The notes under the pieces: model-generated
Seen by the model: only the letters and a program-made list of their open reading frames with translations
Database searches by the model: none
Told to the model about the DNA's origin: nothing
From: Desulfosporosinus sp. Sb-LF
GTDB taxonomy: Bacteria > Bacillota > Desulfitobacteriia > Desulfitobacteriales > Desulfitobacteriaceae
Length of the DNA: 64,000 bases
Reading direction: 5' to 3'
Assembly: GCF_004766055.1 (NCBI RefSeq)
Contig: NZ_SPQR01000009.1
Location: 124,001-188,000 of the forward strand
Shown here: piece after piece, positions 42,657 through 45,011 of the stretch
How the letters are laid out: each line of letters starts with the position of its first letter
Position numbering within the stretch: position 1 is the first letter of the stretch
Program-made: the position numbers and the translations under genes

Positions 42657-43004
42657 GTGAAACTTTTTTCAATATTAGGTGGTAAAAAAACTAGTCAGGC
42701 TAATGTTAATACTACTGCTTACACTAAGGAATTCACATACCTTCCATCATACCACTGGGTACAATCAACCGAATACACTCCCTCAACCACAGAGGAAACA
42801 CTCGCTAAAGCTAAATACCTTATCCACAATACAAAAGATACCCAGGTATACGAGGCTTATAAGGCTATCTTAATAAAAGATGGTTGGACAATTACCAAAG
42901 AAACAGCAGTTATTAATTTCTCAGCGAAAAAAGATACACATATAGCACATATTTCATTTTCAATTTCAGACAAAGATGTATTACTAACCGTTCAGTCAAA
43001 GTAA
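42657..43004 (+). CDS. Small protein, paralogue 1 of a three-member family (no signal peptide)
   Basis: 115 aa of unknown function, GTG start behind GAGGTG. From TAYTKEFTYLPSYHW to its end (VLLTVQSK) it is about two-thirds identical to paralogue 2 at 43506. Unlike its relatives it begins MKLFSILGGKKTSQ and lacks the hydrophobic segment and lipobox, as if ~20 codons of the signal region had been lost. Either it is cytoplasmic or it is a decaying duplicate. Confidence 0.65.
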   Translation: MKLFSILGGKKTSQANVNTTAYTKEFTYLPSYHWVQSTEYTPSTTEETLAKAKYLIHNTKDTQVYEAYKAILIKDGWTITKETAVINFSAKKDTHIAHISFSISDKDVLLTVQSK

Positions 43005-43022
43005 AAAGATCCGTTAACCCTC

Positions 43023-43057
43023 AGGAAGGGCTTCGACTTAAATCGAAGCCCTTCCTT
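43023..43057 (+). terminator. Terminator of paralogue 1
   Basis: AGGAAGGGCTTCGA/TCGAAGCCCTTCCT perfect 14-bp stem followed by TCTC. It abuts the stop of the convergent small ORF at 43059. Confidence 0.75.
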
Positions 43058-43058
43058 C

Positions 43059-43151
43059 TCAATTTTGGTCTTTATCGTTCATGTGTACCCCATGGTTAAA
43101 CATTAAAAATAAAATTAATAATACTACATAGCCCAATATAAAGTAGATCAT
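43059..43151 (-). CDS. 30-aa single-span membrane peptide, copy 1
   Basis: Start ATG 43149-43151 behind AAGGAAGTG, stop TGA at 43059. The peptide begins MIYFILGYVVLLILFLMF and ends with NHGVHMNDKDQN, so one membrane helix with a short polar tail. The paralogue at 44369-44491 differs mainly by synonymous changes and one in-frame codon insertion, which is strong evidence of coding. Function not recognised. Confidence 0.7.
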   Translation of the reverse strand: MIYFILGYVVLLILFLMFNHGVHMNDKDQN

Positions 43152-43443
43152 TAAATCACTTCCTTATTGGGTTATACGTTTTAAGCATTTTCTTTTAGTG
43201 GGGCTGGAAAATTTTATTTAAAGCGAGTAGATCGGAATTGCAAATTTGATACTAGTACCCACCTTCCCCGATATTCCATAGGCTCAGTATATGCTTTCTA
43301 TTTTCCCCATTTGTCCAAATGGCACGATTTTCCAGATTAATACTTACATAATCGGTGTAACGCTGGCAAGAATGTACGATAAGTTTCTGGCAGTCTAAGG
43401 TACAAGCACCAAGGCAGGTTCCTTTTTTGGTAAATGAATCTGT
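43152..43443. other. Gap between small ORF copy 1 and paralogue 2
   Basis: With the promoter and leader this is a 354-bp stretch without a gene. It must hold the divergent promoters. Nothing else is recognised apart from the direct-repeat relation to 44492-44550 immediately upstream of each small ORF (TTAAATCACTTCCTTATT). Confidence 0.35.
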
Positions 43444-43470
43444 TTGACATCTCCTCTTTAAATGTATAAT
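43444..43470 (+). promoter_or_regulatory. Promoter-like element, paralogue 2
   Basis: TTGACA (43444-43449), 15-bp spacer, TATAAT (43465-43470), 35 bp before the start codon. Conserved with the element at 42591. Confidence 0.6.
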
Positions 43471-43505
43471 ATTTTGTTTATAAATTAATTTTTGAGGTGA
43501 TTTTT

Positions 43506-43910
43506 TTGAAAAAATTCTTTTATATTTTCATGATATTGATTTTATCTGTATCATTAGTCGCGTGTAGTGCTAAAAACCCCAATTTGTCTAATAATGGTAA
43601 TGCTAATACTCCAGCTGATAGTAAGTATACTAAGGAATTCACATATCTTCCATCATATAACGGAGCTCAATCAACTGAATTTACCCCTGCAACCACAAAG
43701 GAGCCACTTGCTAAAGCGAGATACATTATCAAAAATACAACAGATGTTAAGGCATACGAGGATTATGAAGATATCTTAAAAAAAGAAGGTTGGACCATTA
43801 CCAAAGAAGAAAGAGTTATTAATTTCTCAGTGAAAAAAGATACGCACACAGCGAATATCTCACTTCAAATATCTGGTAACGACGTAATACTAACTGTTCA
43901 GTCAAAGTAA
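43506..43910 (+). CDS. Putative small lipoprotein, paralogue 2
   Basis: 134 aa from TTG 43506 behind GAGGTG. Signal peptide with a lipobox (ILSVSLVAC, Cys about residue 20), so predicted to be anchored outside the membrane. The mature part shares KEFTYLPSY, AKARYIIKNT, ILKKEGWTITKE, KKDTHTANI and VILTVQSK with paralogue 1. Function and family not recognised. Confidence 0.75.
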   Translation: MKKFFYIFMILILSVSLVACSAKNPNLSNNGNANTPADSKYTKEFTYLPSYNGAQSTEFTPATTKEPLAKARYIIKNTTDVKAYEDYEDILKKEGWTITKEERVINFSVKKDTHTANISLQISGNDVILTVQSK

Positions 43911-43930
43911 AAGATCCATTAACCCTCGAG

Positions 43931-43963
43931 AAGGGCTTCGATTTAAAACCGAGGCCCTCTTTT
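43931..43963 (+). terminator. Terminator of paralogue 2
   Basis: AGGGCTTCG pairs with CGAGGCCCT, followed by CTTTTCC. Related in sequence to the terminator of paralogue 1, showing that the duplicated unit included it. Confidence 0.65.
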
Positions 43964-44191
43964 CCGCTTTTTGGGTCTTTATCGTTATCACCTCTCAGTT
44001 TTCAGGCTTAGATTCCCGGGCACTAAAAAAACCGCCTATCGACGGTAAAAGGAATGCTAGGACTTTATGCAGGGAAAAAGGAATTCTATCCAATTTGTAT
44101 TACCTGAAATATGGATACCTTCAATTACCAGATCGTAGACCCTTGACCACAACTATTAGTCTTGCTAAAATAATACTCGTCAATACTACAT
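43964..44191. other. Gap before the decayed tRNA
   Basis: The gene-poor interval runs from 43911 to 44368, broken only by the tRNA relic. No gene or strong hairpin seen in this part. Confidence 0.3.
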
Positions 44192-44267
44192 ACCGACGTA
44201 GCTCAATTGGTAGAGCAACTGATTTGTAATCAGTAGGTTGTAGGTTCGAGTCGCATCGCTGGCTCCA
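44192..44267 (+). tRNA. Degenerate tRNA-Thr(UGU), probable pseudogene
   Basis: 76 nt with an intact D arm (GCTCAATTGGTAGAGC), an intact anticodon arm (CTGATTTGTAATCAG, anticodon TGT) and an encoded CCA. The T stem is broken: GTAGG faces CGCAT (two mismatches). The acceptor stem has A-C mismatches at pairs 1 and 5. It is isolated on the plus strand, whereas all other tRNAs of the window lie on the minus strand. Probably nonfunctional. Confidence 0.7.
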
Positions 44268-44365
44268 GTTAACACAATCAGAAGTGGCTGTGTTATTTCC
44301 GATTTGGAATTAAGCCATTGCCGATTATTGTTCCACTTCGTGGTGTAGATAAAATTACTACATAT

Positions 44366-44391
44366 CCCCTAGTTGTGACGACTAGGGGGTT
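44366..44391 (+). terminator. Hairpin with weak U-tract after the tRNA relic
   Basis: CCCCTAGT/ACTAGGGG 8-bp stem with a 7-nt loop followed by GGTTTAT. It overlaps the last codons of small ORF copy 2 on the other strand. Confidence 0.45.
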
Positions 44392-44491
44392 TATCCTCGC
44401 TATAATCTTTATCGTTCATGTGTACTGCGTGGTTAAACATTAGAATCAGAATTAACAATACTACATAACCGCCTAACATAAAGTAGATCAT
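44369..44491 (-). CDS. 40-aa single-span membrane peptide, copy 2
   Basis: ATG 44489-44491 behind AAGGAAGTG, stop TAG at 44369. It begins MIYFMLGGYVVLLILILMF, then NHAVHMNDKDYSEDKPPSRH and one Asn. Compared with copy 1 it has an inserted Gly codon, six synonymous and three conservative changes over the shared 28 codons, and a ten-residue longer tail that reads into a hairpin. Divergent from paralogue 3. Confidence 0.7.
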   Translation of the reverse strand: MIYFMLGGYVVLLILILMFNHAVHMNDKDYSEDKPPSRHN

Positions 44492-44618
44492 TAAATCACT
44501 TCCTTATTAGGCTATACGTTTAGTGACTTCGTTTTAGTAATGATGGAAAATTTTAATAATAACTTCCAAATGCATTGAAATTTTTTTATTTTGAAAAACT
44601 ATTGTCGAGGTGTTTAAT

Positions 44619-45011
44619 ATGAAAAAGTTAGTAATTTATATTTTAGCTATCTTATTCTTATTGAGCTTAACTGCATGCAATGCGAAGGTTCCGAATGATG
44701 TCCAAACCAATGTAACATATTCAAAAGAATTTTCATATCTTCCGGCTTACGGCAACATGAAATTACAAAATATTACTCAACCCGACGAAAATGGAATAAG
44801 TTCTGCTAGATACCTTATAAAGAATACAACTACAGATATAGTTTTAAATCAGTATGCAGATATTTTGAAGAAGGATGGTTGGGCTGAAAACTGGTCTTAT
44901 ACAAAAGATAAAAAGCCGTATAGCATGGTTGCTCAAAAAGACAATCATGTGACCACATTATTACCCCGGCAAACCGATAACGATGTAGTATTAATTATCA
45001 GTTCTAAGTAA
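44619..45011 (+). CDS. Putative small lipoprotein, paralogue 3
   Basis: 130 aa from ATG 44619 (MKKLVIYILAILFLLSLTAC). Lipobox LTAC, so predicted lipid-anchored and extracytoplasmic. Shares YSKEFSYLPAY, ARYLIKNTT, ILKKDGWAENW and DNDVVLIISSK with paralogues 1 and 2 but is the most distant. The in-frame GTG at 44610 is less likely. Function unknown. Confidence 0.75.
   Translation: MKKLVIYILAILFLLSLTACNAKVPNDVQTNVTYSKEFSYLPAYGNMKLQNITQPDENGISSARYLIKNTTTDIVLNQYADILKKDGWAENWSYTKDKKPYSMVAQKDNHVTTLLPRQTDNDVVLIISSK

Follow-up and report, generated by a model that had tools for sequence, protein, structure and literature searches.

What are two very short open reading frames doing between the lipoprotein genes of Desulfosporosinus sp. 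Sb-LF? The window, that is, the whole stretch of 64,000 nucleotides analysed here, carries them on the minus strand, at 43059..43151 and 44369..44491. A sequence-only reading had described them as paralogous membrane peptides, and it missed the main point, namely that they belong to a widespread phage family with the signature FN[HY]GAH. The best explanation, drawn from sequence evidence throughout and given a probability of about 0.42 as a whole, is that both are translated and belong to a so far uncatalogued family of microproteins with a single membrane helix, an accessory product of phages that was domesticated by Desulfosporosinus and would dock on a membrane partner, most likely for the exclusion of other phages.

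Two coding microgenes and their control elements

Microprotein 1 (43059..43151, minus strand; 30 aa, MIYFILGYVVLLILFLMFNHGVHMNDKDQN) has one predicted transmembrane helix and scores 54.5 bits with the family HMM, and microprotein 2 (44369..44491, minus strand; 40 aa, MIYFMLGGYVVLLILILMFNHAVHMNDKDYSEDKPPSRHN) scores 47.3 bits. The coordinates first reported for the pair are right, and both genes start with ATG directly behind AATAAGGAAGTGATTTA. In each peptide a single long hydrophobic stretch leads into a polar tail, and the AF2 model of microprotein 2 is a single helix over residues 2-27 of the 39 modelled, with a core pLDDT of ~90. Over the 28 shared codons, the three replacements (I/M, F/I, and G/A) and the one inserted codon (Gly) of the earlier count stand, whereas its six synonymous changes become 8-9 on recount. 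The dN/dS check that had been proposed gives dN ~0.045 and dS ~1.0 (Nei-Gojobori). If coding imposed no constraint, one change in six would be expected to be silent, and the excess of silent changes over this share is significant (binomial P = 2e-5 to 9e-5). Stops and frameshifts, looked for in homologues, are lacking, as the chromosomal and phage copies are open and most end shortly past the motif. The microgenes are truly coding and encode paralogous membrane peptides, and the Desulfosporosinus chromosomal genes are, as judged from their sequences, under purifying selection.

A promoter-like block, ACTAAAA-N14-CGTATA, together with the ribosome-binding site AATAAGGAAGTGATTTA precedes microprotein 1 (43152..43201, minus strand) and is conserved at five chromosomal loci and in the phage contig L196. 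Microprotein 2 has the corresponding block with N13 and its ribosome-binding site at 44492..44541 (minus strand). Genome-wide, the block occurs five times, three of them ahead of peptide genes. CTAAAA-N-CGTATA was considered as the mark of a sigma-factor regulon and rejected, as there are only five genome sites and two of these look like chance; CGTATA may resemble the -10 element of B. subtilis sigma-W. A strong hairpin in the gap between a lipoprotein fragment and microprotein 1 (43023..43056; z -6.0) is a probable bidirectional terminator, and a second one, CCCCUAGU...ACUAGGGG (44364..44389, minus strand), overlaps the end of microprotein 2 and is a possible terminator with a weak U tract. 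Block and ribosome site are also shared by L012 / L173 (G014:C14), where they stand before a 28-residue peptide, MFYWLYVGLFGYVVLVISLLMFTYRKYL, without the FNHGAH motif; this peptide appears to be a decaying or diverged member of the family.

Neighbouring lipoproteins and tRNA-Thr

Three paralogous lipoproteins of unknown family lie at 42657-43004, 43497-43910, and 44610-45011, the first without a signal peptide. As the sequence-only reading had it, the peptide genes are divergently upstream of lipoprotein paralogues, at distances of 345 bp and 118 bp. The repeats in this region (42720-43079 vs 43626-43986, 80%; 43069-43216 vs 44406-44555, 83%) fit a tandem duplication of a block made of a lipoprotein and a convergent peptide gene; in the second unit alone, ~430 bp with a tRNA-Thr separate the lipoprotein from the peptide gene. 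The further suggestion that peptide and lipoprotein form a unit fails, as relatives have one gene without the other. Lipoprotein orthologues are known from several other Desulfosporosinus genomes, at least one of them at a DUF421-linked site. The peptide is missing beside orthologues in other genomes of the genus, including some at this same site, and the lipoprotein is missing from all other peptide loci examined in the genus.

The tRNA-Thr(TGT) copy (44192..44267, plus strand; ~100 bp from microprotein 2) is degenerate and is a possible integration scar. Its acceptor and T-stem pairs are broken, and it scores 48 bits against 69 for the intact copy on contig C2 of the same genome (G000:C2:275933), to which it is 95% identical; the intact copy too has a peptide gene ~200 bp away. 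A decayed duplicate beside the window genes is in line with the past integration of an element, and a search for attachment-site repeats of tRNA-Thr near the peptides found none.

Relatives in Desulfosporosinus

Of the 29 Desulfosporosinus genomes, 18 gave members in single-sequence and profile searches, as did one genome from a different genus of the same taxonomic family, and among 299 genomes sampled across the phylum the matches were confined to Desulfosporosinus and one marginal case. The genome of the window has five copies (contigs C9 twice, C1, C5, and C2). Chromosomal copies are mostly intergenic and do not share neighbours, and some are vertically conserved, such as the MKW clade (L145-L147) and the MKY clade (L148, L151, and L153). 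Three Desulfosporosinus copies lie in prophage-like clusters near a single-strand-binding protein gene (ssb). A recognisable prophage surrounds the gene in only three Desulfosporosinus cases, and no phage genes flank the window copies. Near the peptide genes of L145-L147, L149, L160, and L172, a GDS-motif protein of 241-245 residues (broken in L149) is encoded within ~1.3 kb; it resembles SGNH hydrolases, the family being guessed by eye.

A phage-borne family

A degenerate nucleotide pattern encoding [hydrophobic]-L-x-F-N-[HY]-G-A-H was run against IMG/VR, and in 36 of the 37 contigs matching the strict pattern a one-helix peptide of 20-55 residues is encoded, with a start codon close upstream, usually a Shine-Dalgarno sequence, and a stop shortly past the motif. 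A relaxed pattern added ten further contigs, giving 46 phage contigs in all, a lower bound set by exact matching that includes some near-duplicates and has only partial host assignment. Under the permuted control motif FN[HY]AGH, nine contigs were retrieved and none was of the family form. The W-for-F variant pattern found no phage contigs, and FN[HY]SAH found no convincing members in IMG/VR, yet Bifidobacterium phage PMBT6 has one.

The motif served as anchor for an alignment of 66 distinct members, 39 of them viral. An aromatic residue stands at -10 in 65 of the 66 and a start Met at -16 in 43 of 64, neither having been part of the search pattern; Asn is invariant, and the viral conservation of L, F, N, G, A, and H is partly due to selection because these residues were in the pattern. 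Conservation across the alignment has a period of 100-105 degrees, the hallmark of one conserved helix face, and comparing phage members in pairs yields pS 0.75 and pN 0.20. The family is defined here as proteins of 20-60 aa with one hydrophobic helix, an aromatic residue at -10, L-x-F-N-[HY]-G-A-H towards the C-terminal end, and a short polar tail. The window copies fall within it, with FNHGVH and FNHAVH as their motifs, a slight departure at the G-A pair, and with profile E values of 3e-14 and 6.5e-13 from a model that includes both. Net charges at the peptide ends give no clear topology.

Searches of Pfam, NCBIfam, PHROGs, and PDB with single members and with alignments returned no family or entry covering these peptides; single members gave scattered weak scores only (PHROGs, best E ~0.002). 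With 28-residue members, tblastn against named phages returned chance matches or none, probably an effect of low-complexity filtering, which masks the helix. A literature search for the motif string found no relevant paper. FNHGAH was also considered as the heme-ligand motif of multiheme cytochromes; this reading was rejected, since half of the members have Tyr in place of the first His and no CxxCH follows. Overall, it is highly probable that the family is real and linked to phages. A single origin of all phage members is likely, with the proviso that 25 residues are too few to distinguish common descent from motif convergence across all phages.

Settings of the gene in phages

On sequence grounds, the family is a small accessory gene in tailed phages of distant hosts, and it occurs in two main settings. 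One is the junction of tail and lysis genes (L181, L182, L186, L180, L190, L192, L196, and PMBT6), where the endolysins were identified via Pfam, PHROGs, or annotation. The other comprises early or recombination operons (L164, L212, L215, L216, L217, and L218), in which the stop of the peptide often overlaps the next start. In L196, the gene is flanked by an Amidase_3 endolysin on one side and, on the other, by a 1173-residue gene whose position suggests a tail gene. It has the same promoter block and ribosome site as the window genes and its own terminator, a hairpin with a U-run before the endolysin. With a predicted promoter it is an independent transcription unit among phage genes, which the operon copies are not; L196 therefore has the architecture expected of a moron and appears to be the bridge from phages to the window genes. 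Furthermore, L180 forms a link between an amidase/holin cassette and the chromosomal MKW clade.

Some members of the GC-rich set are Bifidobacterium phages, as judged by DNA similarity of the flanking genes. The PMBT6 member, MRGLVALGAYLILLALILIFNYSAHKR, lies in an unannotated gap ahead of the amidase gene, and downstream of it is a terminator-like hairpin that carries a T-run. This case bears out the earlier remark that length filters miss genes this small, and annotation overlooks the family even in a published phage record. In the Bifidobacterium-type phages L178, L182, and L186, a PHROG 1397 protein of unknown function is directly 5' of the peptide, and in PMBT6 and L181 a different protein of 129 residues (QDF14892) takes this place. 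A reverse transcriptase gene, possibly of the diversity-generating kind, is near some copies (L188 and L210), and a large phage protein with a LAGLIDADG-domain intein (L205:5204-7654) is encoded just upstream of another member.

Proposed role and its rivals

Transfer probably ran from phage to chromosome. In the proposed mechanism, Desulfosporosinus would have taken the genes from phages, as morons, each equipped with a promoter, ribosome site, and terminator of its own, and retained them. About 20 hydrophobic residues would insert into the cytoplasmic membrane, and the helix face (aromatic -10, Leu -2, Asn, and His) with FN[HY]GAH at the membrane interface would dock onto a conserved membrane protein of host or phage. 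Such docking could alter the cell envelope during infection or lysogeny, most likely shutting out a competing phage (superinfection exclusion), in which case the copies on chromosomes would serve as anti-phage genes that the host has kept. Gene context leaves the function unfixed because the position varies between the tail/lysis junction, early operons, and the neighbourhood of ssb. Exclusion seems the best fit to this variable position, the own transcription unit, the membrane location, and retention by hosts; resting as it does on the parallel with phage morons and on retention in chromosomes, it is a tentative assignment, at somewhat less than even odds. A near-invariant hexapeptide common to distant phages would imply a specific and widely conserved membrane target. 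The stronger proposal, in which it binds one conserved target across phyla and the genus has repeatedly domesticated a multi-copy anti-phage gene, is rather doubtful.

Other readings share parts of this evidence. The peptide might modulate a universally conserved host membrane protein during takeover, such as a protease, a translocase, or a respiratory or cell-wall enzyme, with exclusion as a side effect or absent. The same motif in phages of distant hosts is what a conserved target would predict, and the conserved helix face and the translationally coupled copies in early operons agree with it; however, the partner is only hypothetical, no PDB or Pfam family matching the profile, and hosts would need to tolerate stand-alone copies, so that we consider this reading unlikely. 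A little less probable still is a lysis accessory, that is, an antiholin, a pinholin-like or a lysis-timing peptide acting with holin and endolysin. It would account for the many copies at the tail/lysis junction, in the vicinity of endolysins (Amidase_2 or Amidase_3) and holins, but other copies are in early/replication operons or beside ssb, HslV-like, and exonuclease genes, and up to five per host chromosome are away from any endolysin gene seen. Nor is the peptide simply the holin, because several phages also have an ordinary one (separate profile matches in L186, L190, L180, and L192, at least four of the junction phages), whereas a holin is the membrane protein of a lysis cassette that needs no other.

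A small hydrophobic type I toxin checked by antisense RNA is very improbable. Size, single helix, charged tail, several intergenic paralogues, and a conserved 5' leader would suit it, but several phage operon copies with stop/start overlap offer scant space for an antisense gene, and the antisense promoter scan gave sigma-70-like sites at chance level, none of them conserved. Type I toxins are moreover loose in sequence, unlike the strict FN[HY]GAH motif. Finally, that these are chance ORFs or an overlapping non-coding element, as their very short length might suggest, is already contradicted by the excess of silent changes, by start and stop codons that are conserved, by ribosome sites and coupled starts, and by the 66 distinct members, and is hardly credible.

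The preferred reading, a domesticated phage accessory microprotein, is of interest since the hexapeptide ends a protein of 24 residues and is common to phages whose hosts are Bifidobacterium, Desulfosporosinus, or unnamed environmental organisms. Such a peptide is small enough for direct synthesis and testing, and if exclusion is true, it would perhaps be among the smallest phage-excluding proteins.

Comparison with known systems

The family shares weak single-member scores with PHROG, Pfam, and NCBIfam families, none of which covers it. Type I toxins of the Fst/Ldr/TxpA sort are small, with a helix, a charged tail, and paralogues, and the family is like them in these respects; unlike them, it has a near-invariant motif and a phage operon position, and no antisense gene was found. 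Like small holins and pinholins, it is a membrane protein with one helix, encoded close to endolysin genes in several phages, but a canonical holin stands alongside in at least four, and the family is also found in early operons and on chromosomes. T4 Imm is a phage gene for superinfection exclusion. P22 SieA is a phage moron gene of the same purpose (PMC10883804). In contrast to these exclusion morons, the FN[HY]GAH family is far shorter (20-60 aa), with one helix and a near-invariant signature; no sequence similarity between them was found, and exclusion by the family is what we infer. Like them, it is a small accessory membrane protein with a variable position in phage genomes and with copies on host chromosomes, and the L196 member has its own promoter-like block and terminator.
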